Below are positions 4,493 through 53,807 of a stretch of 64,000 nucleotides of DNA, one piece after another; position 1 is the first letter of the stretch; the number at the start of each line of letters is the position of its first letter. The stretch is taken from positions 62,001 through 126,000 of the IMG/VR virus record IMGVR_UViG_3300031576_000005; one strand, given 5' to 3'. Below the pieces are notes generated by a model. That model saw nothing but the letters and a program-made list of their open reading frames with translations. It ran no database searches and was not told the DNA's origin. The position numbers and the translations under genes are program-made. The stretch is from a virus.

Positions 4493-5158
4493 ATGATAAT
4501 TTGCTTAAATTTTTTAAATACATACGGAAACGGAATTCATAGTCAAATTAAAACTTTGGTGAAATGTGATAGTTGTGGTGAGGAACGAATAATCTTTAAA
4601 TTTAATGCTTTAAAAGGTAATGGGGTACAATACTGTAAATTTTGCACCACTAAGGGAAGTAATCATTATGATTATGGAAAACATCGTTCTAAAGCAATTA
4701 AAATAAAGTTAAGAAAAGCTAATCTTGGCAAAAAACTTTCAGAAGAAACTAAAAAGAAACTTAGTTTGGCTAATAAGGGAGAAAATAATCCCATGTTTGG
4801 AAAACGAGGAGAATTAAGCCCCAATTGGAATCCAAATTTAAATAACGAAGAACGTAAAAAGTCACAAGAGAATCGACAAAATTTATCTGATTTTGTTAAA
4901 TGGTCAAAGACAATTAAGCAAATATATAATTTTATATGTCAAATCTGTGAAGACGATAAAGGCGGCAATTTAGTCTCTCATCATTTATATAATTGGAAAG
5001 ACTACCCACAAAAACGTTATGATTTAGGTAATGGAATATGTGTTTGTAAAAATTGCCACAACCTTTTTCATATAATTTTCAGACGGAGACATAATACACC
5101 CGAACAATTCGAAGAATTTAAATTATATATAAAAGAAATTTTAAATATTAAAGTGTAA
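4493..5158 (+). CDS. HNH homing endonuclease with NUMOD3 repeats
   Basis: 221 residues. The N-terminus MIICLNFLNTYGNG is shared with four other HNH genes in this window, followed by a zinc finger (CDSCG...CKFC, about residues 23-47), two NUMOD3-type DNA-binding repeats with GENNPMFGK, and an HNH nuclease core around HHLYNWKDYP with a CVCKNCHN zinc knuckle near the C-terminus. Such free-standing endonucleases cut an allele lacking them and spread by repair copying. It sits in the 700-nt gap between a zinc-ribbon gene and a fibre gene without disrupting either. The frame is intact, so it may be active. Confidence 0.85.
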   Translation: MIICLNFLNTYGNGIHSQIKTLVKCDSCGEERIIFKFNALKGNGVQYCKFCTTKGSNHYDYGKHRSKAIKIKLRKANLGKKLSEETKKKLSLANKGENNPMFGKRGELSPNWNPNLNNEERKKSQENRQNLSDFVKWSKTIKQIYNFICQICEDDKGGNLVSHHLYNWKDYPQKRYDLGNGICVCKNCHNLFHIIFRRRHNTPEQFEEFKLYIKEILNIKV

Positions 5159-13567: not shown

Positions 13568-13811
13568 ATTTTATTCTGAAAAATCTCGACAGGCAAAAAT
13601 TAAAATATTATTTAAAGAAATATTCGAGTTATCTGAGATTTATGGTCTCGACATTTTTAAGCATGATAGTGAGTACGGGAAGTGTAGGTTGACGCCACAA
13701 ATGTTAGATTTTGTTATTAACGAGGGGCTAGATGTTGATTTAGATAAAATAAATAATAAAATAGAGAAAATTAAAGATATATTAAAGAATAATTATGAAA
13801 GCCCCAATTAA
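13560..13811 (+). CDS. hypothetical protein in the polymerase-splitting cassette
   Basis: 83 residues, beginning 4 nt before the polymerase stop codon and overlapping the methylase gene by 17 nt. It is charged and mostly helical (SRQAKIKILFKEIFELSEI, then a Lys/Asn-rich C-terminus). With the Dam gene it forms the about 1.04 kb insert that separates the two polymerase halves, so it is likely cargo or a helper of the inserted unit. No nuclease, transposase or recombinase motif is seen. Function unknown. Confidence 0.5.
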   Translation: MNEFYSEKSRQAKIKILFKEIFELSEIYGLDIFKHDSEYGKCRLTPQMLDFVINEGLDVDLDKINNKIEKIKDILKNNYESPN

Positions 13812-14592
13812 ATATTTTGGCGGCAAAGGAACTATGTACAAAGATATATTATTTCATTTTCCTTCAAACGAAACTTTTAACATATATATAGAGACATTTG
13901 GAGGTTCTGCGGCTATTTTGTTAGCCAATCCTAATTTTCCCAATGTTGAAATATATAACGATTTAGAGAAAAACGTTTATTCACTTTTTAAAGTATTGTC
14001 AAATAAAGCATTATTCCAAGAATTTAAAGAAAAATGCGATTTAACATATTATTGTAATGAAATAAGAAAAGATTTTAAATTAAGTTTAAAAAATGATGAA
14101 TTAACCTTGGTTGATAGAGCTTATAAATTTTTTATAGTTAATAGGACGTCTCATAATGGAATAGGAGGATTTTCTATTAATAATGTAATTCGACGTGGAA
14201 TGTCTAAATCTGTAAGTGATTTTCTATCATCTATAGATAGATTATCACAATTGCACGAACGACTATCTAGGGTTATTATAGAAAACCAAGACGCTTTTAA
14301 ATTGCTAGAAAAATATAATCAGCCAAATGTATTTGTTTATAGCGACCCCCCTTATCATCAAAGCACGAGAACCACCACAAGATACGATGTTGATATGAAT
14401 AATAATCAACAAAAACAATTTATTGATTTGATGTTAAATTCAAAAGCAAAAAATTTAATTAGCGGCTATCGAAATAGCGAATATGAAAGATTAGAATTAT
14501 CTGGTTGGAAAAGAATAGATTTTGAAAAACATACCGTTGATGGTAAACGACAACCAAAAACAGTCATAGAATCTCTTTGGAAAAATTATTAA
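13795..14592 (+). CDS. dam: D12-class adenine-N6 DNA methyltransferase (Dam-like)
   Basis: 265 residues, normal for the D12 class. The start KAPIKYFGGKG and ETFGGSAAI form the SAM-binding region, EIYNDLEKNVY is the acidic ligand motif, and the catalytic motif YSDPPY is near residue 183. It transfers a methyl group to adenine N6, and in phages often protects DNA from restriction. It is the second gene of the insert between the two polymerase halves; its TAA overlaps the restart ATG of the polymerase (TAATG). The target sequence cannot be read from the protein. Confidence 0.85.
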   Translation: MKAPIKYFGGKGTMYKDILFHFPSNETFNIYIETFGGSAAILLANPNFPNVEIYNDLEKNVYSLFKVLSNKALFQEFKEKCDLTYYCNEIRKDFKLSLKNDELTLVDRAYKFFIVNRTSHNGIGGFSINNVIRRGMSKSVSDFLSSIDRLSQLHERLSRVIIENQDAFKLLEKYNQPNVFVYSDPPYHQSTRTTTRYDVDMNNNQQKQFIDLMLNSKAKNLISGYRNSEYERLELSGWKRIDFEKHTVDGKRQPKTVIESLWKNY

Positions 14593-16205
14593 TGAATACT
14601 ATAGATTACATGGGGCTTAAGATTGCATTGGATGATGAAAAAACTTGGGATTATATATGCAAGGGCAGAAATTTAAAAGGTATTTTTCAATTAGAGACTG
14701 AGTCGGCTTCTAATGTTTTAAAAAAAATAAAACCTAAAAATATTAAAGACCTTTCTCTTGTAAATGCCTTAAATCGTCCGGGTTCACTAAAATTTACCGA
14801 AGAAATTTCCCTAATTAGAGATGGAAAAAAACAACCAGAATACACACACGAATGTCTTGAGCCATTTTTAAATGAAAGCTATGGATGTCTAATTTATCAA
14901 GAATCTGTTTTAAAGATTGCTCAAAAATTAGCCAACTTTAAATCAACGCAATCCAATTATTTATTAAAAGCTCTTGGTAAGAAAAATATGGACATTATGA
15001 AGGCTCAGAAAGAAGCTTTTATTAATGGAATGAAACAAAATAATTATCCAGAAGATGTCGCTACCAAATTATTTGCGTGGTTTGAAGATTTTGCAAATTA
15101 TAGCTTTAATAAAAGTCATTCGATTTCCTATAGTACAATGGGCTATATTTCCGCCTATATAAAACTTCATTATCCGTTGCAATTTTTCTGTTCTCTACTT
15201 AATTTTGCTCAATATGAACAAAAGCCATTAGATGAAATATCGGAAATTATATCAGAGCTTCCTGATTTCGGTCTAAAGATACTCCCTCCATCAATTACAA
15301 AAATATCTAACAAATTTACCATAGAAGATGGTTCTATTAGATATCCAATTGGTCTTATTAAAGGACTTGGTGATATAATTTTCGATAAGCTTAAAAGCAT
15401 TAATACCTCTCAAATTAATAGTTTAGATGGATTCTTAGAGAGTGTTTTTACGATTGGACTAAATAGTCGGAGCGTGGAATCTATTATTATTTCTGGCGGG
15501 GCTGACAATTTAAATATACCAAGAGAAGATGTGTTATTTTATTATTGGTTTTTATCAGAACTTAAACCAGATATCCTAGAAAGATTCTGGACATTTAAGA
15601 ACGGTAATCTATTCTCACAAGAATTAATATTTAAATTTCTAGAATATCGAGAACAAGTTTTCTCAAAATTAAAACAAGGAGATTTGTTTCAGCAAGATTT
15701 AATTAATAAGAAGCTAAAATATAAGAGCTATTTTAAAACCGAAACTACTCGAATCAAGACGTTAGAAAAAGTAAAAGAATATGTAGAATTAGTTAAACAT
15801 TACAAAGAAAACATCTCGTTTTCTAAGTTTTTATGGGAAACATATACATTGGGATTTAGTTATAATTGTAATTTCAGCCCCAAAATTAAAACTTTTAAAG
15901 ATTTGGATTTTCTACATGATGACACAAAGGCAAATTCTTGTGGCTTCGTTGATGAGGTAGAGTTTAAAGTTTCGGCAAAAGGGAATGATTATGCAAAGCT
16001 TAAGTTGAAATTTGACCGTAAAAGGGATATAATGTTATTTAATGACGTGTGTCAGTCTGCGAAAGGAAGAATTAAAGAAAAAAGTTTTGTTGGCTTCGGG
16101 GCGACAATGAAGAAAAGTAAGCTGAATGTTGACAGTATTAGAGTGATGGATGATGTAAGAGAAAAAATTGAATTCTATAACAAAAAGAAAAAAAATGAAG
16201 AATAA
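14592..16205 (+). CDS. dnaE: DNA polymerase III alpha, C-terminal half
   Basis: 537 residues from the ATG in the TAATG overlap with the methylase. It opens with NTIDYMGLKIALDD and GIFQLETESA, the DnaE segment that normally follows the third catalytic Asp, then runs through the fingers (NRPGSLKFTEE, YGCLIYQESV, LGKKNMDIM) and the SFNKSHSISYS motif. A C-terminal OB-like region (about 440-520, FKVSAKGNDYAKLKLKF) follows. It lacks catalytic Asp residues and so depends on the first half. Joining the two parts at LVN/TIDYMG restores a continuous, in-frame enzyme of roughly 1,090 residues. It overlaps the next OB-fold gene by 11 nt. Confidence 0.85.
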   Translation: MNTIDYMGLKIALDDEKTWDYICKGRNLKGIFQLETESASNVLKKIKPKNIKDLSLVNALNRPGSLKFTEEISLIRDGKKQPEYTHECLEPFLNESYGCLIYQESVLKIAQKLANFKSTQSNYLLKALGKKNMDIMKAQKEAFINGMKQNNYPEDVATKLFAWFEDFANYSFNKSHSISYSTMGYISAYIKLHYPLQFFCSLLNFAQYEQKPLDEISEIISELPDFGLKILPPSITKISNKFTIEDGSIRYPIGLIKGLGDIIFDKLKSINTSQINSLDGFLESVFTIGLNSRSVESIIISGGADNLNIPREDVLFYYWFLSELKPDILERFWTFKNGNLFSQELIFKFLEYREQVFSKLKQGDLFQQDLINKKLKYKSYFKTETTRIKTLEKVKEYVELVKHYKENISFSKFLWETYTLGFSYNCNFSPKIKTFKDLDFLHDDTKANSCGFVDEVEFKVSAKGNDYAKLKLKFDRKRDIMLFNDVCQSAKGRIKEKSFVGFGATMKKSKLNVDSIRVMDDVREKIEFYNKKKKNEE

Positions 16206-16503
16206 TTCTTGGCATGGAAAAGGACTGATTAAAACTATTAAAACAGTAGTAATTCCCGACCCACGAGGAGACTATGAAGTAACAGATTTAACGATTTCTA
16301 TTAAAAGAACAATAAAAGGCAAGGAAAAAATAACGTTGGTGCCGATAGAAGGATGGGGCGAAATGTCGGCCTGTTGCAAATCCTTTAAAGAGGGTGATAT
16401 GGTTTTTATTGAAGGACATTTTGCTAATAAGAAATGGACTAATAAAGAAAAAGTAGACATTAGCAAGAATTTGATAGTTTTAGAGAGAATTGAAAAGGCT
16501 TAA
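16195..16503 (+). CDS. small OB-fold protein, SSB-like
   Basis: 102 residues, starting inside the polymerase stop region. The pattern NNSWHGKGLIKTI, a beta pair around TISIKRTIKGKEKI, VPIEGWGEMSACC and FKEGDMVFIEGHF resembles a short single-strand DNA-binding OB fold, but there is no acidic SSB tail. A clearer SSB is encoded at 61323-61724. Its place directly after the polymerase suggests a fork accessory. It could also be a primosomal PriB-like OB protein; confidence in the exact role is low. Confidence 0.55.
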   Translation: MKNNSWHGKGLIKTIKTVVIPDPRGDYEVTDLTISIKRTIKGKEKITLVPIEGWGEMSACCKSFKEGDMVFIEGHFANKKWTNKEKVDISKNLIVLERIEKA

Positions 16504-16504
16504 A

Positions 16505-19500
16505 ATGAATAAAAAAAGAATATTATTCGTTAGTAATTTCTGTTTGGCTAATAGCGGATTCGGTAAATATCAAAAAAATTTATTATCGCGTCTTTATAAG
16601 ACTAAAAAATATGAGATTGCTGAACTTGCGTGCGGAGTTTCCGACCAAGACCCCATGACTCAGAAACTACCCTGGAAAGTTTATGGCGTCTTACCTAAAA
16701 CGCAAGAGGAAAGCATACGTTTTAATTCCGCTGATGAAAACACAAAAAGAGCGTATGCCTATGGATTATTTCGGTTTGATGAAGCTGTGTCTGACTTTAA
16801 ACCAGATATTGTTATATCCCACGAAGATGTCTGGCAAGCATCTAGCTGGTTAAAACAATCTAAGACTTGGGGTAAATTTATTCCAGTTCAATTTAATCCA
16901 TTTGACGCCGAACCAATGACAGACATATTTGTAGATTTTTTAAAAGACATTAAACATGTTTATACATATGGTAAATGGAGTCAGCAAATTGGTTTTAAAG
17001 CTAATCTTTTGCAAACTAAAGTTGCAACACTAGGAATCGACCAAAATATTTTTAAACCATTAGACGCTTTATATATAAAGCAATTAAGGATGAAGTGGGG
17101 AATTAAAGATACGGATTTTGTAGTTACGATGGTGGCTAGAAATCAAATTCGTAAGAAATATGATGCACTATTTGAGTCGTTAAATGAAATAGATAAAATA
17201 AATCCAGAATTATATAAAAATATTAAGATTCTGCCTTTCGCATTTTATCAAGACGAGCCGGGAATTAATTTTCCTAAATTTTGGAAGAGTCGCAATATAG
17301 ATGAATCAAAAATTATTACTCCTTATTTTTGTGAAGATATGAGGAATGAAAGCAGGGGTAATGGATGTAAAGCATATCACGTTGCCTCAAAGTATGAAGG
17401 CGAAGCCAAAGATTGTCCGATTTGTGGAACAAAAGGTTCTTGTCACACCCCATCTGTGATTAGTGGTTTTACCGACGAACAACTTAATGAAATTTATAAT
17501 ATTAGTGATTTATTCGTATTACCGACGACTAACGAAGGATTTTCAGTTCCAACTTGTACGACCCCAAATACAATTGTTATTGATAATAAATTCCAAGGAA
17601 AAAGAATAAAAGATATAATAATTGGTGATAAAATGATGGATTCAAATGGAAATGAAAATTTGGCTTTAGAAACTATAAAAAGAAAATATTCTGGAGATAT
17701 TTTATGTATTAAAGCCGCCGGTATACCAACAATTGAAGTCACTCCAGACCATCCGTTTTTAATAGAAAGAAATGAACAAAGAATTTTTATCGAAGCTAAG
17801 GAATTAAAATCAGGAGATAATTTATTGACTCCTATTCCGTCTAAAAATATAGATATTGAAAAAATTAAGTTAAAATCTTTTGGATTTGCTAATACCTATT
17901 TAAATACTCATATAGTCCCCAAAGATGGAAGTTTGGCAGATTTTGCTAAAAAAATTGGATATGCACCCTCCACGGTTTATAACAGTATATATAATTCTAA
18001 TAAAATTAAATCAAACGGACGACCAGTGGTTTCTAAAGAAACTTCTTCTTTAATCTTGAAAGAAGTTAATAGAAATATTTTAGAATTTAAAAAATGGGAA
18101 AATGATATTCCTGAATATTTATTTTTGAATGAAGATAATTTATTTGCTTTGGGGCTTTATGTAGCCGAGGGTTGTTGTAGCGAAGAGAATGAAGTAATGT
18201 TTACCTTTAATAAGAATGAAACAAAATATGCTGAAAAAAGCGAAAGATTATTAAAGCAAATGGGATGTTCTACGAAAATTTCTATAATAAAAAATACGTG
18301 TCGAGTTTGGGGGAGAGTAAGAGGAATTAAAAAATTTTTCCATATTTTTGGAACGTCTTGCGTTAGCAAATGTATTCCTGATTTTATTTTTAATTTGCCT
18401 CAACAAAAATTACAACATTTTTTATTAGGTTATTTTTGTGGAGATGGCTGTTTTTCCGGTAGGTATTGTGTTACAGTAAGCTTAAAATTAGCTTTTCAAA
18501 TTAGGTTTCTTTTATTGAAATGTGGATTTTTAACGAATTTCTATATTATTCAGCCCAGAAGAAATGTCGTGATAAAAGGAAAAGAATATAATTGTAAAAG
18601 ACAATATATGATATCTTTCGGAAGCCAACAATCTTTTTTGGATTTTTCTAGCTTAAAGAAAAACTCTATTTCTTCCAAAAAACATATTTTCTTTCCAAGC
18701 ATAAATAATAATTATTTATATACGCCTATTAAAAAAATAACAATAAAACAATATAATGGATATGTATACAATGTAGATACCGATAATAACTCTACCTTTT
18801 TGATTAATGGGGTTGTTTCACACAATTGTGAGGCTTTGTCTGCGGGTAAAATGGTAGCTGTAACAAATTATAGCACTTGCGCCGAATTAGCAAAAGATAG
18901 TGGCGCTGGTTTTTTATTTGATTGTTCGCTTTCAGTTGAACATGGAACCTTTTTTTATAAAGCTAACATTACTCCACGCGAAATTGCTAACCAAATAAAC
19001 AAAATTTATAATATCAAGCCAGAAGTTCGTAAAGAACTAGAAAAAAAAGCTAGGGAATATGCTGTCACTGTTCATAATTACGATAAACTAGCAAAAGATT
19101 GGGAAAATGAAATAGATGCAATGCAGGTATTAGAAAATGTTGATTGGAATACTGAGCCAGTGATTAAAAATCCAAATCCCAACGGTTTGATGCCACCTTG
19201 TTCTGATGATATATCTTGGGTCTGTGCTTTATATAAAAATATCTTAGACGCTGATGTTATTAAAGAAACAAATGGTAAGCCAATAGAAAATCAAGGCGTT
19301 CAATACTGGATGATGGAAATCCAACAAAAAAAGCGTACTAAAGAACAAATCGAAGAATATTTTAGACAAATAGCAAATGAAGATTTAAAGAAGAAAACGG
19401 TGGATATTAGGACATTACTTGACCCGCTTGATACAAAAAGAATGTTGTATGTAATGGCGGTCTCAGCCGGAGATAATTTTTTAAGTACGGCTATAGTCAA

Positions 19501-19765
19501 ATCACTTAAAGAAAAATATCCAGACCATTCTATTTATATTGCCTCGAAACCAGAATTTGAAGGTATTTGGAAAGGGAATCCAGATATTAAGAGATGGCTT
19601 CCATTTGGTGATGCTATGTTACAATATGGATGGGGGATAGATAGATGGGAAAAAGGAATTTTTGATATTGTATTAACTCCAACTATTTTGACTCAAATGA
19701 ATTCCCCGAATTGGCACAATAACGGGAAAACTGAATCTTTTTTAATTAACGGAGGTACAAAGTGA
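16505..19765 (+). CDS. GT4 glycosyltransferase + GT9 N-half, intein-containing
   Basis: 1,086 residues from the ATG one base after the previous stop. Residues about 1-350 and 775-910 form a GT4 glycosyltransferase (RILFVSNFCLANSGFGKY; EGFSVPT/CEALSAGKM). A 424-residue intein (351-774) splits the EGFSVPT-CEALSAG motif, exactly the donor-binding loop. After the GT4 part, the C-terminal 120 residues (MLYVMAVSAGDNFLSTAIV, YPDHSIYIASKP) look like the N-half of a GT9 heptosyltransferase whose C-half is the next gene. It is a sugar transferase of unknown substrate that sits, unusually, inside the replication operon. Confidence 0.8.
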   Translation: MNKKRILFVSNFCLANSGFGKYQKNLLSRLYKTKKYEIAELACGVSDQDPMTQKLPWKVYGVLPKTQEESIRFNSADENTKRAYAYGLFRFDEAVSDFKPDIVISHEDVWQASSWLKQSKTWGKFIPVQFNPFDAEPMTDIFVDFLKDIKHVYTYGKWSQQIGFKANLLQTKVATLGIDQNIFKPLDALYIKQLRMKWGIKDTDFVVTMVARNQIRKKYDALFESLNEIDKINPELYKNIKILPFAFYQDEPGINFPKFWKSRNIDESKIITPYFCEDMRNESRGNGCKAYHVASKYEGEAKDCPICGTKGSCHTPSVISGFTDEQLNEIYNISDLFVLPTTNEGFSVPTCTTPNTIVIDNKFQGKRIKDIIIGDKMMDSNGNENLALETIKRKYSGDILCIKAAGIPTIEVTPDHPFLIERNEQRIFIEAKELKSGDNLLTPIPSKNIDIEKIKLKSFGFANTYLNTHIVPKDGSLADFAKKIGYAPSTVYNSIYNSNKIKSNGRPVVSKETSSLILKEVNRNILEFKKWENDIPEYLFLNEDNLFALGLYVAEGCCSEENEVMFTFNKNETKYAEKSERLLKQMGCSTKISIIKNTCRVWGRVRGIKKFFHIFGTSCVSKCIPDFIFNLPQQKLQHFLLGYFCGDGCFSGRYCVTVSLKLAFQIRFLLLKCGFLTNFYIIQPRRNVVIKGKEYNCKRQYMISFGSQQSFLDFSSLKKNSISSKKHIFFPSINNNYLYTPIKKITIKQYNGYVYNVDTDNNSTFLINGVVSHNCEALSAGKMVAVTNYSTCAELAKDSGAGFLFDCSLSVEHGTFFYKANITPREIANQINKIYNIKPEVRKELEKKAREYAVTVHNYDKLAKDWENEIDAMQVLENVDWNTEPVIKNPNPNGLMPPCSDDISWVCALYKNILDADVIKETNGKPIENQGVQYWMMEIQQKKRTKEQIEEYFRQIANEDLKKKTVDIRTLLDPLDTKRMLYVMAVSAGDNFLSTAIVKSLKEKYPDHSIYIASKPEFEGIWKGNPDIKRWLPFGDAMLQYGWGIDRWEKGIFDIVLTPTILTQMNSPNWHNNGKTESFLINGGTK
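17555..18826 (+). mobile_element. intein with LAGLIDADG homing endonuclease
   Basis: The in-frame insert begins with Cys (CTTPNTIVID) and ends with VVSHN followed by Cys at +1, the residues needed for protein splicing. Block B is VTPDHPFLI and GYVYNVDTDNNSTFLING is the C-terminal region. Two LAGLIDADG motifs lie inside (FALGLYVAEGCC at about 18140, FLLGYFCGDGCF at about 18420), and a small helix-turn-helix-like stretch (DFAKKIGYAPSTVYNSI) comes before them. 424 residues is a normal full-length intein, and no stop or frameshift is seen, so both splicing and homing may be active. Confidence 0.9.
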
Positions 19766-31164: not shown

Positions 31165-31884
31165 TTAACACAAACTATTTATATATAATTTGAATTTTTT
31201 AAATTGTTCGGGTGTATTGTGGCGACTCCCGAAAATCTTATGAAAAAGAATATGAAGGTCTTTAGAAATAGTTATCCCGTTAGAGACATTAAAACGTTCT
31301 TCGGGGTAGTCAGCCCAGTTGTAGAGATGGTGGACTACAAGTTTTCCACCAACACTTCCGGTGATTTGACAAGTATAATTGTCTCGTGTATAAACTGATT
31401 TTCGCCATTCGTTAGTTTTAGAGTTATAATGCCTATCATTTTCTCTTTCCTCTTTAGTTAAATCATGTCGCCATAAGGGATTTTGCTCTCCAAATTTACC
31501 AAATCTTGGATGTTTTTCTCTCTTGGTGGCTAAACTCATTTTTTTACGAGCTTCTTCGGTATGTCGCCTGCCAAAATTATGAGATAATTCTCCTCTCTTA
31601 CCATATTGACAACTTTTTTCTCCTTTTTGAGAAGAACTAATTCTTTGTTTTGTTTCTTCTTTATGATGCTTTCCAAAGACGGGAGAAAGTTCTCCAGATT
31701 TTCCGAACATTGGATTTCTTTCACCTTTGCTAGCACAAGATTTACAATAATCTCGCCCATTTCCTTTTAATACTCCGTATTTATCTAAAATCCTTTCTTT
31801 GCCACAATCATCGCAACGAACCAAACTTTTGAGCCTCCTTCTCTTTTCTCCATATGTATTCAAAAAATTTAAACAAACAATCAT
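31165..31884 (-). CDS. HNH homing endonuclease with NUMOD3 repeats
   Basis: 239 residues, intact. The start MIVCLNFLNTYGEKRR is nearly the same as in four other copies; a zinc finger (CDDCGKERI...CKSC) follows, then three NUMOD3-type repeats (GERNPMFGK, GELSPVFGK, KHPRFGKFG) and an HNH core (VVHHLYNWADYPEERF, SKDLHILFHKIF). The ATG lies in a TAATATG junction, so the gene sits between two others without harming either. It would cut a site in alleles lacking it. Confidence 0.85.
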   Translation of the reverse strand: MIVCLNFLNTYGEKRRRLKSLVRCDDCGKERILDKYGVLKGNGRDYCKSCASKGERNPMFGKSGELSPVFGKHHKEETKQRISSSQKGEKSCQYGKRGELSHNFGRRHTEEARKKMSLATKREKHPRFGKFGEQNPLWRHDLTKEERENDRHYNSKTNEWRKSVYTRDNYTCQITGSVGGKLVVHHLYNWADYPEERFNVSNGITISKDLHILFHKIFGSRHNTPEQFKKFKLYINSLC

Positions 31885-32922: not shown

Positions 32923-33216
32923 TTATTCGATATTAAATCTTTTTGTGGTTTGTGTATATTCTATGTCTTTTTCTTCTGGTGTTTTAGCCTCGACTGGTTT
33001 ATTACAATTTTTGAAGATATAGAGCCTTTCTGCTTTTCCTATTATTTCGTACTCTTCTATTAGGAACGGCTGGTTTGTTTTGGTCACATTTGCTTGAATC
33101 AGAGGCAGGGAGTCGATATAATATAGATGTTCAGAATCCTCTTCTAAGACGGCAACCAAAGATTCTAAGATATCCTGTTCAATTAAATATCCAGAAATTG
33201 TTCTGATTAGGTTCAT
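32923..33216 (-). CDS. hypothetical protein
   Basis: 97 residues: a Leu/Ile-rich N-half (IRTISGYLIEQDILESLVAV), then polar strands (YEIIGKAERLYIFKNC) and a charged tail. It starts inside the end of the HNH gene (ATGA) and ends 40 nt before the promoter of the next transcript. No family recognised, and no motif suggests a role. Confidence 0.5.
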   Translation of the reverse strand: MNLIRTISGYLIEQDILESLVAVLEEDSEHLYYIDSLPLIQANVTKTNQPFLIEEYEIIGKAERLYIFKNCNKPVEAKTPEEKDIEYTQTTKRFNIE

Positions 33217-33956
33217 GATAGAATATCTAAGATATATTTTTCGAATTGCTTGAATTGCGATGGGGTGTTATTCTTAATTCCGAAAATCATATGAAAAAGA
33301 ATATGAAGGTCTTTGGAAATTGTGATTCCGTTATTCATATCAAAGCGAAGCTCTGGATAATTCGCATAATTGTACAAGTGATGAGCTACAAGTTCGCCGC
33401 CTTTTCGTCCGGTGATTTGGTCAATATAGTCGTCTCGTTTAAAAACTTTATTTCTCCATTCTAATGTCTTAGGATTATAATTTCTGTTTTTATTGTTTTC
33501 CCTTTCTTGTTGTGTTAAATCATCTCGCCACATAGGGTTTTTATTTCCTAAGTGAGATAATCTAATTTTTTCCAGATGCTCTTTGGTGTGGTGTTTTCCA
33601 TAAAATCCGGCGTCTTTACCATATCTACCGAACATAGCATTCTTTTCTCCGCTTCGTGCTTCGCTCATTTTTTTACGAGTTTCTTCAGAGGCTTTCTTCC
33701 CATAATTATTACCTTTACCTCCCTTTTGAGCTTCGCTAATTTTCTTACATCTTTCCAAAGAATAATGTTTACCATAGTTATAGGATTTTTCTCCCTTCGT
33801 GCAACAAGAAGCACAAAAACTAACTCCAACCCCTCGCTTTGCAGAGCCTTTTCTAATAATTCTTTCTTTTCCACAATCATCACACCGAACCAGACTTTTT
33901 ATAATAGTTCTTTTTCCATCTTCATATGTATTCAAAAAGTCTAAACAAACTATCAT
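33213..33956 (-). CDS. HNH homing endonuclease with NUMOD3 repeats
   Basis: 247 residues from the ATG of a TAATATG junction; four extra codons upstream belong to the previous gene's end. Start MIVCLDFLNTYEDGKR, zinc finger CDDCGKERI...CASC, three to four NUMOD3-type repeats (GKGNNYGKK, GEKNAMFGR, NKNPMWRDD) and an HNH core (VAHHLYNYANYPELRF, LHILFHMIFG). The frame is intact. It is the same family as at 4493, 23361, 31165 and 51790. Confidence 0.85.
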   Translation of the reverse strand: MIVCLDFLNTYEDGKRTIIKSLVRCDDCGKERIIRKGSAKRGVGVSFCASCCTKGEKSYNYGKHYSLERCKKISEAQKGGKGNNYGKKASEETRKKMSEARSGEKNAMFGRYGKDAGFYGKHHTKEHLEKIRLSHLGNKNPMWRDDLTQQERENNKNRNYNPKTLEWRNKVFKRDDYIDQITGRKGGELVAHHLYNYANYPELRFDMNNGITISKDLHILFHMIFGIKNNTPSQFKQFEKYILDILS

Positions 33957-33957
33957 A

Positions 33958-34881
33958 TTATTTGACAATTATTTCTTTGTTATTGTTTTTTAATGATTCA
34001 TCACATTTTTCAAGAATTTTAATTATATCACACGAAAGGCCAATATCAATTTGTAGTTTATCTTCTAATGCGTCTATGAACGAAGAAATTACTTTTGTTA
34101 ATGGTTTTTCATTACTAACAGTAATTGTTTTGCAAGAATCACCACGAATTTGAAATAATTCCTGGTCAAACATTGTCATTTTAAGAAAATTAGATTCGGC
34201 AGTGAATCCTCGATACTTGCTTGAGGACAAATTGTCTACATCGATTGAGGCTACTAGATGTTTGAATTTTACATCAACATGCAATTGTCCGGAATTATCG
34301 TAGTTTGGATGGCTTATTAGGTTAGCTTTAACAGATATTGGAGTTTCTTTTAAAAGTCTTATCATCATAGATAAATCGTGTCCACACCAATCCCAGAGTA
34401 TACCGATGTCCTTCCTAAATGGCCCGAAACTAGCACTCTTAGAAACTATTGATTTTATTGGGTCATTTTTAAATGTTTTAACCAATTCTATAAATGCCGG
34501 ATTAAATAATTGCGTGTTATCTATGAGGCAAGGAATTTGTTGTTTTTGTGCCAAATTTTTAATCTCTTGCGAGTCGTAAGAATTTAAGCATATCGGCTTT
34601 TCACAAATGAAAGGAAGAAGGTGATAAAAGCACCCACAAATAATCTCAAAATGCGTATGTGGAGGTGTCGCAATAATACAGAAATCAAGCTTTTTATCAA
34701 GAAGCAATTCTATATAATTATCTGTGATTTTAACTTTATTTTTGAATAGCGATGAATTAGCTGGGTTTGAAGTATATAAATGGGTGATTTCTACGTTTTC
34801 CATTTGTTGGATGGTTCGAATGTAATTTTTACCGAATCTTCCGCAACCTATTAGTCCACATTTATATACTTTGTCAGACAT
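33958..34881 (-). CDS. Gfo/Idh/MocA-family oxidoreductase
   Basis: 307 residues, slightly short. The N-terminal Rossmann motif GLIGCGRFGKNYI and the ICEKPICLN segment (EKP) are family marks, and GILWDWCGHDLSMM is in the catalytic C-domain with a His. Such enzymes oxidise or reduce sugars, often NDP-keto-sugars or inositols, with NAD(P). Its neighbour is an SDR acting on nucleotide sugars, so it may reduce a keto sugar made there. The substrate is unknown. Confidence 0.8.
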   Translation of the reverse strand: MSDKVYKCGLIGCGRFGKNYIRTIQQMENVEITHLYTSNPANSSLFKNKVKITDNYIELLLDKKLDFCIIATPPHTHFEIICGCFYHLLPFICEKPICLNSYDSQEIKNLAQKQQIPCLIDNTQLFNPAFIELVKTFKNDPIKSIVSKSASFGPFRKDIGILWDWCGHDLSMMIRLLKETPISVKANLISHPNYDNSGQLHVDVKFKHLVASIDVDNLSSSKYRGFTAESNFLKMTMFDQELFQIRGDSCKTITVSNEKPLTKVISSFIDALEDKLQIDIGLSCDIIKILEKCDESLKNNNKEIIVK

Positions 34882-40190: not shown

Positions 40191-41059
40191 TGTGAGAACG
40201 AAGGCGAGCCAACAAAAGTTTGCCCTTCTTGAATACCAGGAATATTACCATTAATTCCTAGGGCATTAATATGGTTAGAAACTGACGGAACAATATTTAG
40301 TAAAGGAAAATATTTGCTGGTATCCCATCCTTGCTCCTTTGCGTAAAGCGACCAATAATAACTTAATCCGTGTGATAATGGACCGTCTGCTAAAAGTTTT
40401 CTATTACCCCCTGGTTGTTTATTAGCCAAACGTTCCCACCACGTTGTTTTCATTTCTGGATATTTTTTCATTAATTCCATTGTAAAACGCCATTTTAAAT
40501 AAATTGTTCCACAAGAATTAGAGATTCCACTCAATTTTAGAGTTTTGTTTCCCAATGTACAATCGAATAGTTTAAACATATTGGTTCTATTGACTGGGTC
40601 AGAACCGTAATCTTCTTTTATAATATTTCTATACATTTTATCATATCTTTCAGGCGTATAAAAATCTGGGTGGTCATATCCCGATATGCCAATTGATTTT
40701 TTCCCGATTTCACTTTCAAATACCTCTAAAATATCTTCTGCCCAATTTTTTCTAAATATGTAATCACTTTCAACAAAAAAAACATATTCTGGATTATATA
40801 CTCGTGCTACAGACAATCCAAATTCAAAATTCGTGCCATATCCTATATTTTCATTAAATGAAAGCATATCAATCGGCATTTCTTTCGTAGAATTTTCCAA
40901 ACAAAATTGCCATAACCCGACTTTTGTTGATTTTTCACTTGCATCATCTAAAATCACAACTCTATGTGGTTTAACGTTTGTATTGGAGAATAATGTGGCC
41001 AAACACTCTTTTAGAATTATTGGACGATTATGAGTGTATATAATATATAGAAGTTTCAT
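40187..41059 (-). CDS. GT2-like glycosyltransferase, tandem paralogue
   Basis: 290 residues with the same layout as its neighbour: LLYIIYTHNRPIILKECLAT, HRVVILDDASE, YVFFVESDYIFRKNWAED and a final INGNIPGIQEGQTFVGSPSF. It overlaps the following copy by 4 nt. The pair differ by many substitutions, so the duplication is old and the two may add different sugars or act at different positions. It starts right after a truncated HAD-like frame. Confidence 0.75.
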   Translation of the reverse strand: MKLLYIIYTHNRPIILKECLATLFSNTNVKPHRVVILDDASEKSTKVGLWQFCLENSTKEMPIDMLSFNENIGYGTNFEFGLSVARVYNPEYVFFVESDYIFRKNWAEDILEVFESEIGKKSIGISGYDHPDFYTPERYDKMYRNIIKEDYGSDPVNRTNMFKLFDCTLGNKTLKLSGISNSCGTIYLKWRFTMELMKKYPEMKTTWWERLANKQPGGNRKLLADGPLSHGLSYYWSLYAKEQGWDTSKYFPLLNIVPSVSNHINALGINGNIPGIQEGQTFVGSPSFSQ

Positions 41060-41256
41060 ATTTTAAATTTTGCTATAAAATCACTACAAATTCCTGAGAT
41101 TTTAACTTTTGGTAATCCATAAATTTTAAAATGTTCATCTTTAGCTATAGAGTATTTAGAGCCTACTTCAGAAATAGCTTCGTTTAATGAAAAAAAATGA
41201 ATTTCTTTAGTGCTTGCTAGAACCCCGTCTAAATCAAAAATTATCAATTTAATCAT
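41056..41256 (-). pseudogene. truncated HAD-superfamily hydrolase
   Basis: 66 residues: MIKLIIFDLDGVLASTKEIH contains the HAD motif I (DLDGVL) and the start of the cap region, then the frame ends at IAKFKI, where the glycosyltransferase ATG overlaps the stop. HAD phosphatases need about 200 residues with motifs II-IV, which are absent. It looks like the leftover 5' part of a sugar-phosphate phosphatase gene replaced by the tandem GT2 genes. Confidence 0.6.
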
Positions 41257-41278: not shown

Positions 41279-42262
41279 TTATTCTCTATAAATATCGTTT
41301 AATGCCGAAAGTACGCTTTCCACCATTTTATCTTCAGAAAATTGTAAAGCTTCATTATAACAGTTAATCTGCTTTATGTCATCAAGTTTATTCCAGGAAT
41401 TACAAAAATCCATATCGCTAAAAATAAAGAAGCCATTAACGCCATCTTTAATAAAATTTTTATATCCACCCATTTTAGTTGCGAAGATTGTACAACCATA
41501 ACTAGCCGCTTCTTTAGCGGCCAAAGTTACCGAAATATTATAATCCTGAAACTGAGTATTTACCTTTGCTCGCTTCATGAAATCTTCTTTTGTTTTCTGG
41601 TCGATAACGCCCAAATAATAAGTAATTTTATTATTAATAAAGTTTAATAGAGGATAATCTTTATCAATTGGTCCCGCAAAAACCGTCGTAATTTCATGTT
41701 TTAATGCATAATAAGCAACCTCTATAGAGTGATATGCTCTACAATGTCTGGAACATTGAAAAATCATGTCTTCCTTTGGATATTCCTGAAATACTGGAAA
41801 TTTCGGGCCAATAACAATATTATAAACTTTATGATTGCTAGTTAGTTGTGGTTCTTGGTTTTTAATATCAAATAATAATACATGTTTGTGATATGGATGA
41901 ACAATTTCGCGCCAACCAACCGGCCAAACGACTTGTTTTTGGCTACGGCATCCTTGTAAATTAAGATATGTGGCCGCGAAATGATGAAAGAAAATATCGT
42001 ATTCGTCGGAGTTTGGAATATAATTTTTAAGGGGTGCTCCGTTTTTAATAGCCTGCCTTTCACGTTCGCATAAAAAATGGCCTTGTTTTCTTTTTTCTAT
42101 AGGAATACCATCAAAACATTTTTCATCGCCATAAATATGAAAATCATCTAATTGATTTAATAAAGCTGCGGCAATTATTCGGCCTCCCCCATATTTTTTG
42201 GGAGCAACATGATAGTCCTCTATACAATCCGATTCATTAACATCTATATATGCTATTTTCAT
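41279..42262 (-). CDS. GT4-like glycosyltransferase
   Basis: 327 residues. N-terminal MKIAYIDVNESD with YGGGRIIAAALLNQL resembles a GT-B acceptor domain; the C-half has FQCSRHCRAYHSIEVAYYAL, YLGVIDQKTKEDFMKRA, and SVTLAAKEAASYGCTIFATK, the donor-binding region. Motifs are weaker than in other GT4 genes here. It overlaps the FkbM gene by 4 nt. It likely transfers an NDP-sugar; the call is by fold pattern. Confidence 0.6.
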   Translation of the reverse strand: MKIAYIDVNESDCIEDYHVAPKKYGGGRIIAAALLNQLDDFHIYGDEKCFDGIPIEKRKQGHFLCERERQAIKNGAPLKNYIPNSDEYDIFFHHFAATYLNLQGCRSQKQVVWPVGWREIVHPYHKHVLLFDIKNQEPQLTSNHKVYNIVIGPKFPVFQEYPKEDMIFQCSRHCRAYHSIEVAYYALKHEITTVFAGPIDKDYPLLNFINNKITYYLGVIDQKTKEDFMKRAKVNTQFQDYNISVTLAAKEAASYGCTIFATKMGGYKNFIKDGVNGFFIFSDMDFCNSWNKLDDIKQINCYNEALQFSEDKMVESVLSALNDIYRE

Positions 42263-42912
42263 TTGGGTTTCGCAATATAATCGGGATGATTTTCTTTAAC
42301 GAGGCTCATTGTATACCCCATATCTTCAAATAGTTTACAAAAATCTTCAACGCTTTTGGGGCTAAAATTTTCGTATTCAAATATAACTATAGGTCGACAT
42401 CGCATAATTGTTTCTCTCGCCCCCTCTATAACATAGTAATCTGTTCCTTGGGCGTCTATTTTTATAAGATTTACATCTAAATTTAAACTATCCAAGGCCA
42501 ACATTTTAATTTGTGTGGGTTGTGTTGACTCCCCACATCTAGTATCCCCAAGGTTGCTTCCCGTTGGGGTATTAATAGTAGCATATCCATTGTATTTCCA
42601 ACAGGTATAATTATATGAAGTAACATTATCACATTCGTTTATACAAAAATTACCGCACATTTGATTAAAACGCCTAATTTGTGGTTCAAAAGCATGGATA
42701 TGTTTTACTTTTTTAGCTAAATGAATTATCTGTTCCCCAATATAAGAACCAACATCAATAATTACTGATTGATTATTTATATATTTTTCAATTTCTTGTA
42801 TAACTTCTTCGTCCCATAATTTGTTCTCAAATTTAACGTAATTCTCAATAAGGTCTCCGCCATCAGATAGCAATAATTTGCCATAGGGCTTTTTATAAAT
42901 TGAATATTCCAT
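42259..42912 (-). CDS. FkbM-family methyltransferase
   Basis: 217 residues. SAM motif I VIIDVGSYIGEQIIHLAKK, then HIHAFEPQIRRFNQMCGN, and LIKIDAQGTDYYVIEGA, the FkbM IDxxG-xE core. Such enzymes O-methylate sugars or polyketides. It is one of three FkbM-type genes within 4 kb, interleaved with a carbamoyltransferase and a glycosyltransferase. It starts at a TAATATG junction. The methylated position is unknown. Confidence 0.8.
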   Translation of the reverse strand: MEYSIYKKPYGKLLLSDGGDLIENYVKFENKLWDEEVIQEIEKYINNQSVIIDVGSYIGEQIIHLAKKVKHIHAFEPQIRRFNQMCGNFCINECDNVTSYNYTCWKYNGYATINTPTGSNLGDTRCGESTQPTQIKMLALDSLNLDVNLIKIDAQGTDYYVIEGARETIMRCRPIVIFEYENFSPKSVEDFCKLFEDMGYTMSLVKENHPDYIAKPK

Positions 42913-42913
42913 A

Positions 42914-43546
42914 TTATTTGACTCTTTTAGCTAAGTCTATAATAATATCATTTGGATTCATTTCTTTATAATAAAGATTTTCTATATCTTTGATTTTAAA
43001 TTCATTATAATATTTGGGATTAATAAACCAATCTTCTAAATATTTTTTGCCAGCGAATGAAAGTCCAACATTTTCAACAATCATTTTATATGGTTTATCT
43101 TTCATAAAAGAACTTAATTTTTCTTTTTGAAATTGTCCATGCGGGTTATATAAATCGTGCTCTATTGTTAATATTTTAAAATCATATTCTTCAAATGGAA
43201 ATTTTGATAAAACATTAACGCACGGGTCTTCAATGTATCCGTTTGGGTCTATATCAATTGTAAGATAATCGATAGCTTTTGGAACTTTAAAATGGTCAAA
43301 TAATTTTTTGTAATCCAGGTGAAATGCGTCGGCCTGAATAACTGTAGATTTTGGCCTGAATTTAGCCGCTTCTTCACAATATCTAGGAAGATATTCTATG
43401 AGCAAACCAGTCCAACCGAGTTCCTCTAACCAAGCTGTATTTGATGCACATGGCTCGCCTTCTCCATTGCCAGCGCCAATATCAACATAATATCCTGAAT
43501 TTCCCAATAGTAATTGAACAAACAAATCTTGTTGTGATAAACTCAT
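42914..43546 (-). CDS. FkbM-like methyltransferase
   Basis: 210 residues. GYYVDIGAGNGEGE is SAM motif I, SNTAWLEELGWTGLLIEYLP and IDYLTIDIDPNGYIED continue the family pattern. This variant differs from its neighbour (a W-E-x2-GW-x-GL-x-IE form, common in phage and cyanobacterial sugar clusters). Probable O-methyltransferase on a sugar. Its stop forms a TAATATG start for the next gene. Confidence 0.7.
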   Translation of the reverse strand: MSLSQQDLFVQLLLGNSGYYVDIGAGNGEGEPCASNTAWLEELGWTGLLIEYLPRYCEEAAKFRPKSTVIQADAFHLDYKKLFDHFKVPKAIDYLTIDIDPNGYIEDPCVNVLSKFPFEEYDFKILTIEHDLYNPHGQFQKEKLSSFMKDKPYKMIVENVGLSFAGKKYLEDWFINPKYYNEFKIKDIENLYYKEMNPNDIIIDLAKRVK

Positions 43547-43566: not shown

Positions 43567-45163
43567 TTATTTTTCGTAAATTTTTCCATTTATTACCATA
43601 ATATCAACCGGCGTATTTTTAAAGAAATTATTTGCGTCTTCTTGAGTTTCTAGTATTGGCTCACCATTTCCATTTAAACTCGTGTTTATTATCATAGGTA
43701 TATTGGTTTGGCTATAAAAAGATTCAATAAGTTTATAATAATTAGGATTTGTTTCCTTGGTAACAGTCTGCATTCTAGCAGAACCATCAATATGTGTGAT
43801 TGAGGGAATTTCTTTTGGATTTTTCACTTGAGCCGTAAATAACATAAAAGGACTTTTTGTAGGAAAATCAAACCATTCTTGGGTTTTTTCTTCTAAAACT
43901 GATGGTGCAAACGGCCTGAACCATTCCCTCTTTTTAATTAAAAAATTTAATAACTCTCTATTATGGAAATTACGTGGGTCTGCTAAAATAGAGCGATGTC
44001 CAAGCGCTCTTGGTCCGTGTTCCGATTTTCCATCAAACCATCCAATAATTTTTCCTTTCGATATTTGTTTTGCTAAAAAATCATATTCAAGCTCTCTCTC
44101 TCTCTTCGCCTCCACCCAGATAGCAAATCTCATTATCTGTATATTTGTAACGTGGTTCATTAAACAAATTATGAGTAACGTAAAGTGCCGAACCAACCGC
44201 TATTCCATCATCACCACAACCAGGAAATAAGTGAACATTTTTAAATTTAGATTCTTTCAAAATTCTGGTATTAACATTGCAATTGAGCATTGAACCACCA
44301 CTTAAACATATATTTTTATTTCCTTGATTATCAATATTTTGTATACATTTTAAAATCGCTTCCTCGAATATATATTGAAGAGATGCGGCGATATTCATCG
44401 CTGTTTTACTATCTTTAAAAGAAGAATCAAAAGCTTTATCTGTCCTAGAAATTTCTTTCCAAAATTTACAAAATTCCTCCTCAAATACTAACTCTTTGTT
44501 AAAAAAGCATCTCTCAACATATGAATTAATATTTTTAATTATAAAATCTAACGGCATCCCATAAGATGCTAGACCCATCGTTGAACCAGCTTTATGTAAA
44601 GGGTCTCCTAGCCCCAAATTATATGTAAATTTTGTATAAAGATTCCCAACCATTAAACCCGGGCAATTAATAGCCAGTATCTTATTATTTTCTCCATAGG
44701 CAACTAAAGAATTCCACGCCATCATTCCGGTACTAGAATCCAAACTGAAACAAAAAGAAGATTGAAATGGACTAGTATAAAAAGATGACGCACAATGCGC
44801 CATATGGTGTGGAATTGCTATTGCCGGAATTCTTTTGCCTCTTATTTCAAAAAATATATTATCTTTTATTATTTGATTACCCACCACACCCTGCGTAAAT
44901 ATTCCGCATTCTTGATTATTTATAAAAAGTTTACATGTTCCGTTCGCATATTCAGGAAAATAATCGGTAAATGAAATAACGTCAACTTCATTTAATGAAA
45001 TATTAGATAGTTTTAATCCGTAATCTAATACCTCATTTGTTATTCCGTAAGATTTTTTAATTCTAGTAACTCTTTCCGATGAAATTGCCGAAATTAATTT
45101 GTTACCTTTTACTACAGCCATTCCCCCGTCGTGTCCTAAATGAAGCCCTAATATATTAGCCAT
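43567..45163 (-). CDS. NodU/CmcH-type carbamoyltransferase, broken at (AG)7
   Basis: The first 358 codons (LGLHLGHDGGMAVVKGNK, HHMAHCASSFYTSPF, LSGGSMLNCNVN, FPGCGDDGIAVG) form the Kae1-like domain that makes and uses carbamoyl-adenylate; stop follows GGGEERERA. The next frame holds the C-domain (SKGKIIGWFDGKSEHGPRAL, SILADPRNF, INTSLNGNGEPI). One more AG in the (AG)7 tract restores a single 532-residue enzyme, the normal length. With the tract as read, no full enzyme is made. It would carbamoylate a sugar hydroxyl using carbamoyl phosphate and ATP. Confidence 0.8.
44092..44105 (-). repeat. (AG)7 dinucleotide tract inside the carbamoyltransferase
   Basis: Seven AG units ((CT)7 on the + strand) lie at the point where the frame switches. 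Eight units give GGGEERERE-LEYDFLAKQ in frame; seven stop at TGA 4 nt later. Such tracts slip readily during replication. Confidence 0.9.
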
Positions 45164-45166
45164 ATT

Positions 45167-45859
45167 TTATTTTTTTATAGGTTGAAGTAATAAGTCATGT
45201 ACGTGTTTAGTATCAAAATCTTCTCTACAAACTTTTTCCATAGTATCTGGATTTAATGGATTATAGCCTATAAAATCAATTGCGTCAAACAAATTATCAT
45301 TTTTACTTTTATGAAACCACCACTCGGTATAGATTAGTGGTTTATACATGTCAAGAATTGGTTTAATATTTTTTAATACAACCGGCTCCCAACCTTCTAT
45401 ATCCATTTTTATAAATTTAAGATTGTTCAAATCATGTTTTAACAAAAATTGAGCGGTATTAATACAAGGTAATTCCACTAACTGGCAATGCCCACGTTCT
45501 TCTTCGATTGAAAATCCATCCATAATACCTCCGTTAGACCTCCCGCCACCAAAAGTTTTATATTCATCCCTATCCGAACAACCAGTATTATAAGCTGTAC
45601 AATTTTTTATTTGATTTAATTCTAAATTTTTAATCAAAAAACTATATACCTCTGGGTTAATTTCGAAACTCATTACCCCCCCCACAGTCGCCCCCGCTAA
45701 TATTGACATAGCAATACTAGAAGTTCCTAAATTAGCCCCAATATCCAAACATAAACAGCCCTTTTCTATAAAAGGGGGCAACACCTTCATAAACATATCA
45801 AATTCGGCGGGTAAACTCACACCTCTTGGAACATCGATTTGTGGATATTCAAAAATCAT
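45167..45859 (-). CDS. FkbM-family methyltransferase
   Basis: 230 residues. CLCLDIGANLGTSSIAMSI (SAM motif I), GVMSFEINPEVYSFLIKNL, and LKFIKMDIEGWEPVVLKNI, the clearest FkbM core of the three (MDIEGxE). Likely sugar O-methyltransferase. It overlaps the C-methyltransferase gene by 4 nt and precedes the carbamoyltransferase by 3 nt; the three may act on one sugar. Confidence 0.85.
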   Translation of the reverse strand: MIFEYPQIDVPRGVSLPAEFDMFMKVLPPFIEKGCLCLDIGANLGTSSIAMSILAGATVGGVMSFEINPEVYSFLIKNLELNQIKNCTAYNTGCSDRDEYKTFGGGRSNGGIMDGFSIEEERGHCQLVELPCINTAQFLLKHDLNNLKFIKMDIEGWEPVVLKNIKPILDMYKPLIYTEWWFHKSKNDNLFDAIDFIGYNPLNPDTMEKVCREDFDTKHVHDLLLQPIKK

Positions 45860-51793: not shown

Positions 51794-52588
51794 TTGTTTA
51801 TATTTAAGGCTTCTTTCATGTATTTTGTGAATTGTTTAAATTGTTGTGGTGTATTATAGCGATTTCCGAAAATTTTATGAAATAGAATATGAAATTCTTT
51901 TAAAATTGTGACGCCATTTACAACATCAAATCGTTTTCTGGATAATCAGCCCAATTATAGAGATGGTGAGCGGCGAGCTTTCCCCCTGTAATTTTAAGGA
52001 TTTCATCTGTATAATCATCCTTCTCAAACACTTTTTTCGCCATTCTCGAAGCTCTGGATTAAGACTTCTATTTTTACTATTTTCTCTTTCTTCTTGGGTT
52101 AAATCATGTCTCCAATTAAAGCTTTTTTCACCCCTTTTAGATAAACCTATTTTTAAACGAGATTCATCGGAGTGATGTTTACCAAAGTGAGATAAACTCA
52201 TTTTTGTTAGGGTTTCATTCGAAGGACAATAATCAAACTTTGGATGTTCTTTTCCGCATTTTCCAAATAAATAACTTTTTTCTCCTTTATGAGATAAACT
52301 CAACTTTTGCTTCGTTTCTTCAGAATGATGCTTTCCATAAAAAGGATTTTTCTTTCCCTTTAAAGCCAAACTCATTTTTTTAATAGATTCTCTATTATGC
52401 TTTTTCCCATACATTGGGTGTCTGTCTCCCTTTTGACGACAGGATTTACAATATTTTACCCCCTTAGATTTAAGTGCATTATTTTTATTAATTATTCTTT
52501 CTTTTCCACAATCATCGCAGCGAACCAAACTTTTAATTCGACTTTTCTTTCCATTATAAGTGTTACAAAAATCTAAACAAATTATCAT
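51790..52588 (-). pseudogene. HNH homing endonuclease, two frameshifts
   Basis: Start MIICLDFCNTYNGKKSRI after a TGATATG junction, zinc finger CDDCGKERI...CKSC and about four NUMOD3-type repeats, the most of any copy. The frame breaks after EWRKK: one A is missing in the A6 run (52037-52032) and a second in the A4 run (51937-51934). With both added the core reads VFEKDDYTDEI, AAHHLYNWADYPEKRFDVV and ends KEALNINK, 266 residues. As read, the nuclease core is lost. Confidence 0.8.
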
Positions 52589-52589
52589 A

Positions 52590-53807
52590 TCATTTATTAA
52601 ACCATTCTCCAAATATTCTTATTATATAATTTAAATCTTCTTTTGTTAAAAAAGAATGACATCCTATATAAAATCCTCGTTCAAGAATTTCCCACGACAT
52701 TGGAAAGTTAGTCCTAAAATTTATTTTAGTACCAAAATATTTTTCAGTTATGGGGGTATAAAGCGGCAAAATTTCTCTCGTCTCTATGCCATTCTTTTCT
52801 AAAAAATGTATTAATTCCCATTTTTCTCCATGCGGCGAACGAATTGGAAGCATCATATGCCTAGCCTCTTCTTCTCTGGAAAATTTAGGCAAAATTAATG
52901 GAAATTGGCTTAGTTCTTTGATTAAATATTCTGAATTTTCTTTCCTCTTTTGTAATTGTCCTAAAAAGTCATCTTCCAGCATTGATAATGCAAATGCCGA
53001 TTCGGTTTCCCCCAGTCTAAAATTCAGTCCCGGTTGGACGAATTTGAATCTCTTACTTGTTATATCTCTTAAAATAGCTCCTTCTACATCGTCATCGTCT
53101 ATACAGGTATATTCAGGGCTTCTACCATGATTAACGTAGCTCCTTGCATGGATTATCAAACGTTCGTCATTTGTTCCGATAAAACCACCGCACCCACCAG
53201 CAACAAGTAGATGGGAAATATATGTACTCCATGCGGTAAAATGAGCAAAGCTTTCTGGATACTGAGAATTGAACCTACTACAAATGTTCTCGCATGAATC
53301 CAAAATAAAGAAAATATCTTTATCGTATAAATCAATTATCTCTTTAATCCTTAGTCCATCAACCGGTCTCCCCATTAATGAAGATGGCATAACCGCGAAT
53401 ATATCTCTAGAATGCTCTTTTAATTTACTCTCTAAATCTGTATAACAAATATTATAATTTGCACCGACATCGACAAATAATGGTTCAAATCCGTTGGAAG
53501 TAATTACATTGCAGTCACTTATAAAAGTTGTTGCCGGTAAAACAATATATTTACGTTTGGCCGCTGCTTCTGGATACAAATTTTTTAAAACTCCAATAGA
53601 AGCGTAGAGCGCCGCCGTTCCGCTAGAACAGAAAACAGCATATTTCACCCCATTCATCTCAGCAAATAATTTCTCAAGTTTTTGGGAAATCGGACCATAT
53701 GTTAATCGTCTGGACTTAATAATCTGCTTTAGGTATTTATCAAGCCCCTTAGCTGGATACCAATCGCCGAATCCTATAGATTTAACAGGCTTTTTTACTT
53801 CACTCAT
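52590..53807 (-). CDS. DegT/ColD-like PLP 3-dehydrase (His for Lys)
   Basis: 405 residues. DegT/DnrJ/EryC1/StrS fold: CSSGTAALYASIGVL, LPATTFISDCNVI, ILDSCENICSRF (the PLP-binding Asp). The lysine that holds PLP in aminotransferases is replaced by H199 in STYISHLLVAGGCGG. In ColD and DdhC (RfbH) the same Lys-to-His change turns the enzyme into a 3-dehydrase that removes the C3 hydroxyl of a 4-keto-6-deoxy sugar. With the window's GDP-mannose 4,6-dehydratase this suggests a 3,6-dideoxy-4-keto sugar. DdhC's extra Fe-S cysteines are not seen, favouring the ColD type. Confidence 0.75.
   Translation of the reverse strand: MSEVKKPVKSIGFGDWYPAKGLDKYLKQIIKSRRLTYGPISQKLEKLFAEMNGVKYAVFCSSGTAALYASIGVLKNLYPEAAAKRKYIVLPATTFISDCNVITSNGFEPLFVDVGANYNICYTDLESKLKEHSRDIFAVMPSSLMGRPVDGLRIKEIIDLYDKDIFFILDSCENICSRFNSQYPESFAHFTAWSTYISHLLVAGGCGGFIGTNDERLIIHARSYVNHGRSPEYTCIDDDDVEGAILRDITSKRFKFVQPGLNFRLGETESAFALSMLEDDFLGQLQKRKENSEYLIKELSQFPLILPKFSREEEARHMMLPIRSPHGEKWELIHFLEKNGIETREILPLYTPITEKYFGTKINFRTNFPMSWEILERGFYIGCHSFLTKEDLNYIIRIFGEWFNK

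Follow-up and report, generated by a model that had tools for sequence, protein, structure and literature searches.

Two AG dinucleotide tracts breaking enzyme genes of a tailed phage as putative slipped-strand on/off switches

The DNA analysed here (the window, a stretch of 64,000 nucleotides) is part of an IMG/VR virus record of 159,142 bases. Judging from a long tape-measure gene for the tail and a gene for a UvsX-like recombinase, the record is from a tailed phage. Over more than half of its length the window carries, on the minus strand, glycan-type genes mixed with other phage genes: several glycosyltransferases, three epimerase/dehydratases, two C-methyltransferases, a DegT aminotransferase and a Gfo/Idh oxidoreductase. 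Within this stretch lies a carbamoyltransferase gene of the NodU/CmcH type with FkbM-type or FkbM-like methyltransferases on both sides, and its reading frame is broken at an AG repeat (Table 1).

Table 1. Positions of the genes, tracts and further features (window positions unless a record or locus is named)
Feature	Position	Strand	Basis
Carbamoyltransferase gene (NodU/CmcH type), its frame interrupted by the AG tract; OFF in the assembly	43567..45163	-	Pfam domains in two frames and homologue L013
(AG)7 tract (simple sequence repeat, SSR) in the linker of the two domains; putative switch	44092..44105	- (= (CT)7 on +)	sequence
N-terminal (Kae1-like) carbamoyltransferase domain, 358-aa ORF ending in the tract	44087..45163	-	Pfam
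C-terminal domain of the carbamoyltransferase, in a different frame from the N half	43567..44106 (ORF 43567-44196)	-	Pfam, phrog_1601
FkbM-type methyltransferase, upstream neighbour of the carbamoyltransferase	45167..45859	-	PF05050, E 6.7e-9
FkbM-like methyltransferase, downstream neighbour	42914..43546	-	PF05050, E 0.005, below cut-off
FkbM-type methyltransferase	42259..42912	-	PF05050, E 3.9e-16
Stretch with glycan-type genes, mixed with other phage genes	26429..61342	-	Pfam
(AG)9 tract that interrupts an FkbM-type methyltransferase gene; lies beyond the window	record 14372-14389 (L001:1501-1518)		sequence and homologue L174
AG tract in two forms of a C5 DNA methyltransferase gene of another phage	L098:4144-4175 (32 nt, OFF); L144:8125-8160 (36 nt, ON)		
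AG tracts in queuine tRNA-ribosyltransferase-like genes	L119:8317-8336, 8469-8491; L121:1581-1599		
Truncated HAD-hydrolase fragment	41056-41256		
DNA polymerase III alpha gene, apparently split by a D12-class DNA adenine methyltransferase ORF	11867-16205 (D12 ORF 13795-14592)		
Glycosyltransferase ORF with intein-like insertion	16490-19765		
NUMOD3/HNH-like ORFs	4493-5158, 31165-31884, 33213-33968, 51926-52612; at least 8 more outside the window		Pfam for two, others by sequence likeness

Both domains of the carbamoyltransferase are readily recognized by Pfam. Carbam_trans_N (PF02543, E 8.1e-47) covers residues 4–327 of the 358-aa ORF, and Carbam_trans_C (PF16861, E 1.1e-65) is matched over its whole profile (1–170 of 170). 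The N domain shows likeness to the solved GdmN and TobZ, while the C half belongs to phrog_1601, annotated in PHROGs as Nol-like carbamoyltransferase, an annotation shared by family members of Pelagibacter phage HTVC008M and of cyanophages. As assembled, the two domains are not part of one polypeptide; they occupy separate frames that meet at the AG tract. The break thus lies exactly in the 14-nt repeat, as an earlier reading made from the sequence alone (the sequence-only reading) had claimed. An intact viral homologue (L013) aligns with its residues 9–354 to the N half (49% identity) and with residues 359–537 to the C half (72% identity). Since the halves correspond to consecutive parts of this homologue, the frame is the sole defect and no other piece is missing. 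According to frame arithmetic the frames rejoin at 8 units (or at 5, 11 and so on) to give 532 aa, so that the further claim of the sequence-only reading, that one added unit restores a 532-residue frame free of other defects, also held. The tract itself encodes a short Arg-Glu linker joining both domains and is free of stop codons in all frames; extra units should therefore be tolerated.

A second AG run, this one of nine units, ends an ORF of the same record early at 122 aa. The two fragments meeting at this run match consecutive parts of an intact 194-aa homologue (L174), one with 34% identity (E 2e-14), the other with 40% (E 1e-10). This homologue is an FkbM methyltransferase (PF05050, Methyltransf_21, E 5e-16); the fragments by themselves give no Pfam match, and the family of the second gene is seen through the homologue only. 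To be read through, each of the two tract-broken genes requires an identical net shift (+1 or -2). As the repeat unit is not a multiple of three, a change in tract length alone toggles between a full-length and a truncated product in both genes, as judged from frame arithmetic and from the homology of the halves. By their families, both broken enzymes appear to be of kinds that decorate sugars or small molecules.

When counting AG/CT runs over the whole record we found 42 of three units, 7 of four, none of five or six, one of seven and one of nine. By chance 0.0006–0.0035 runs of at least 7 units (about 0.004) are expected, the value of 0.0035 coming from a fifth-order Markov model. Apart from (AG)7 and (AG)9 the 159-kb record contains no dinucleotide repeat of at least 6 units, and homopolymers of at least 9 G or C, the feature of polyG switches, are absent. 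Both long AG runs of the record each break a gene for an otherwise intact enzyme. The sequence is a metagenome consensus (IMG/VR virus contig), and the tract lengths might accordingly reflect an error of assembly or sequencing. This is very improbable: tracts of 14–18 nt are far shorter than a read, and the same kind of error would be needed at each of the sole two runs that reach 5 AG units, leaving both out of frame.

With the NodU/CmcH family (TobZ, GdmN) the gene in the window has both Pfam domains in common, and its best relatives are viral (up to 72% identity in the C half). It differs from them in the frame broken at an AG tract. The sequence-only reading had pointed to related genomes as a comparison; of the 66 related carbamoyltransferases compared, none carries the tract or a break at this place. 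In 41 carbamoyltransferases from viral contigs (58–72% identical in the C half) the tract is missing, and those spanning the junction read through in frame. The 25 cellular carbamoyltransferases are more distant (53% or less) and contain no AG/CT run over 8 nt. In the intact relatives that span the junction, viral as well as cellular, both domains lie in one polypeptide. In 21 of the related records, which add up to about 0.9 Mb, (AG)7 does not occur, and a degenerate AG-linker pattern gave 0 matches in viral contigs. Given its absence from the relatives, the tract is a recent addition in this phage's lineage and not a fixed feature of the family. Scans with the N half of the carbamoyltransferase, a tail protein and DNA polymerase III found no close relative of the phage itself; likewise one protein of the structural region had no tblastn match in isolate phages, and a close isolate was not found.

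The conservation of the two genes also bears on whether they are dying, that is, whether both enzymes are no longer needed and inactivating indels merely fell in the repeats. Both tracts are OFF in this assembly, which is a point against switching insofar as it is compatible with decay too. In addition a truncated HAD-hydrolase fragment near the carbamoyltransferase, possibly a remnant, suggests some decay in the region; it comprises 66 aa, compared with 178 positions in Pfam HAD_2, and overlaps the start of the next gene. However, each of the two genes is intact and well conserved outside its tract, and decay leaves the repeats unexplained, these being the sole two such runs in 159 kb and missing from relatives. 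We therefore regard decay as unlikely.

Full-length protein might also be obtained without any change in the DNA, if ribosomal frameshifting or slippage of RNA polymerase on the AG run yielded some of it. The identical net shift needed by both genes would fit such a process, whereas the unequal length of the two tracts and the lack of stable RNA structure around either of them (z +1.3 and +1.0) speak against it, as does the tract of another phage described below, whose length itself varies in the DNA. To our knowledge frameshifting or polymerase slippage is not an established property of dinucleotide runs. Altogether we consider expression-level frameshifting slightly less probable still than an assembly error, and each of the three, decay included, is much less likely than switching. 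Switching by an invertase or a diversity-generating retroelement was rejected as a candidate: just weak AT-rich inverted repeats were detected, none of which brackets the tract as a clean pair.

A natural pair of ON and OFF forms was found in another phage than that of the window. Two records from different metagenomes (G022 and G023; IMG 3300022661 and 3300024272) are alike over 12,993 bp save one substitution and a single 4-nt gap. It is the AG tract of a gene for a C5 DNA methyltransferase that contains this gap. With 32 nt the tract leads to a product of 252 aa (OFF), with 36 nt to one of 329 aa (ON). The pair is direct sequence evidence for repeat-length switching in a phage gene.

We conclude, with a probability of roughly three in four, that (AG)7 and (AG)9 are two slipped-strand on/off switches (SSRs), both OFF in the assembly. 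During replication of the phage genome the AG repeat would gain or lose units. At two thirds of the tract lengths the C-terminal domain would be frameshifted (OFF), and at one third the full enzyme would result (ON). Together with the second switch in the FkbM-type methyltransferase, four on/off combinations would be possible. It counts against switching that tracts of seven and nine units are short for dinucleotide slippage and should slip slowly. The sequence-only reading had proposed that slippage produces on and off forms of a sugar-carbamoylating enzyme in the phage population. Slippage is now the best explanation owing to the second tract, the tract-free relatives, the missing frameshift signal and the ON/OFF pair in another phage; the sugar target is suggested by the gene cluster. 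The position of the carbamoyltransferase among FkbM- and C-methyltransferases, glycosyltransferases, nucleotide-sugar epimerases, an aminotransferase and an oxidoreductase makes a glycan product the natural expectation. As both enzymes are of sugar-decorating types, mixed virions or infections differing in glycan decoration would be the likely outcome. We infer that this phage switches, that a glycan is the target and that an advantage arises, while the broken frames, the intact halves, the rarity of the tracts, the absence of the tract from relatives and the two states in another phage are observed.

To see how AG tracts are distributed in viral contigs more widely, a scan for (AG)9 was carried out. 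It returned at least 120 stretches, of which 106 tracts with 122 flanking fragments were usable. Among the matches listed, Pfam assigned 13 of the fragments to PAPS_reduct and 12 to C5 DNA_methylase; single matches were obtained for Mom, a D12 methyltransferase, NADAR, DUF1599 ("nucleotide modification"), a nucleoside deoxyribosyltransferase and a GDP-mannose dehydratase. With PHROGs, again among the matches listed, another family of DNA methyltransferases came up, as did queuine tRNA-ribosyltransferase-like genes and one nucleotide-sugar epimerase. Compared with the other reading frames of the same loci, and counting the matches listed, C5 methyltransferases are 11-fold enriched beside tracts (p 7e-7) and PAPS-reductase-like genes about 100-fold (p 4e-8). 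In all 31 listed tracts within genes of the C5 methyltransferase and PAPS-like types AG is on the sense strand. Eleven of these 31 are in frame, near the one in three expected under free length drift, as counted by a crude stop-to-stop criterion on a list chosen by hand after the families had been seen. A control with (AC)≥9 gave 5 C5 methyltransferase fragments and 0 PAPS reductases; since these tracts also occur in C5 methyltransferases, the pattern is in part common to dinucleotide repeats at large. Two separate AG tracts were present in 4 of 14 tract-bearing records, as in the phage of the window.

Taken together, we lean slightly towards the view that phase variation by dinucleotide repeats is a widespread strategy among many unrelated phages, with AG (sometimes AC) tracts on the sense strand, above all in C5 DNA methyltransferase and PAPS-reductase-like genes and more rarely in glycan enzymes. 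The enriched families are DNA-modification and not glycan genes (one nucleotide-sugar epimerase among the matches listed), so the analogy to the carbamoyltransferase is one of mechanism, not of target. If this view is true, a phage population always includes members whose epigenetic or glycan coats differ, which would serve against restriction and changes of the receptor.

AG tracts were noticed in ten PAPS-reductase-like phage genes (L060, L064, L073, L078, L083, L140, L150, L160, L163, L166). Three of these tracts (L140, L163, L166) fall into a single variable loop that corresponds between the genes, where the isolate phages checked have none; the PAPS reductases checked in isolate phages contain no AG tract, their longest AG/CT run being 6 nt. 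The tract-bearing queuine tRNA-ribosyltransferase-like genes are possibly DpdA-like (7-deazaguanine DNA modification). Near copies of the tract-bearing genes of the survey were found neither in E. coli genomes nor in isolate phages.

Phase variation is textbook knowledge for bacteria hiding from phages. In H. pylori, sabA contains 6–10 CT units and is ON at 7 or 10 (PMC2715451). Like the tracts described here, it is a dinucleotide tract in a coding sequence and of the same size range, with one length in three in frame; sabA, however, encodes a bacterial adhesin and its tract is near the 5' end, whereas the (AG)7 tract lies between two domains of a phage enzyme. The phage pair G022/G023 resembles bacterial phasevarions in having a methyltransferase turned on and off by a repeat. 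Unlike in phasevarions, this methyltransferase is phage-encoded and of C5 type, and it probably serves to evade restriction and not to regulate genes. In phages, SSR-mediated switching of a receptor-binding protein by polyG tracts is summarized for Campylobacter phages in a review (PMC11868660, citing Sorensen et al. 2021, Cell Rep 35:109214). As far as the review's account goes, these are likewise SSR switches of phage-borne genes that diversify the phage population, but they involve polyG and a receptor-binding protein instead of AG dinucleotides in a carbamoyltransferase and an FkbM methyltransferase. Our search of the open-access literature yielded no publication that describes dinucleotide switches in modification enzymes of phages. 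Repeat switching in phages is hence already known, while dinucleotide switches on their modification enzymes look new. If phages bet-hedge on their own modification genes as bacteria do, a single genome sequence would misstate host range and restriction resistance, and phage genes annotated as broken may be switches. Owing to the natural ON/OFF methyltransferase pair this idea is directly testable with existing metagenome reads.

Other features of the window were noticed during annotation. Its DNA polymerase III alpha gene is apparently split by a D12-class DNA adenine methyltransferase ORF. A glycosyltransferase ORF of 1091 aa seemingly contains an intein-like insertion (about residues 360–780). 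Furthermore, NUMOD3/HNH homing-endonuclease-like ORFs form an unusually large family of similar sequences scattered over the phage.
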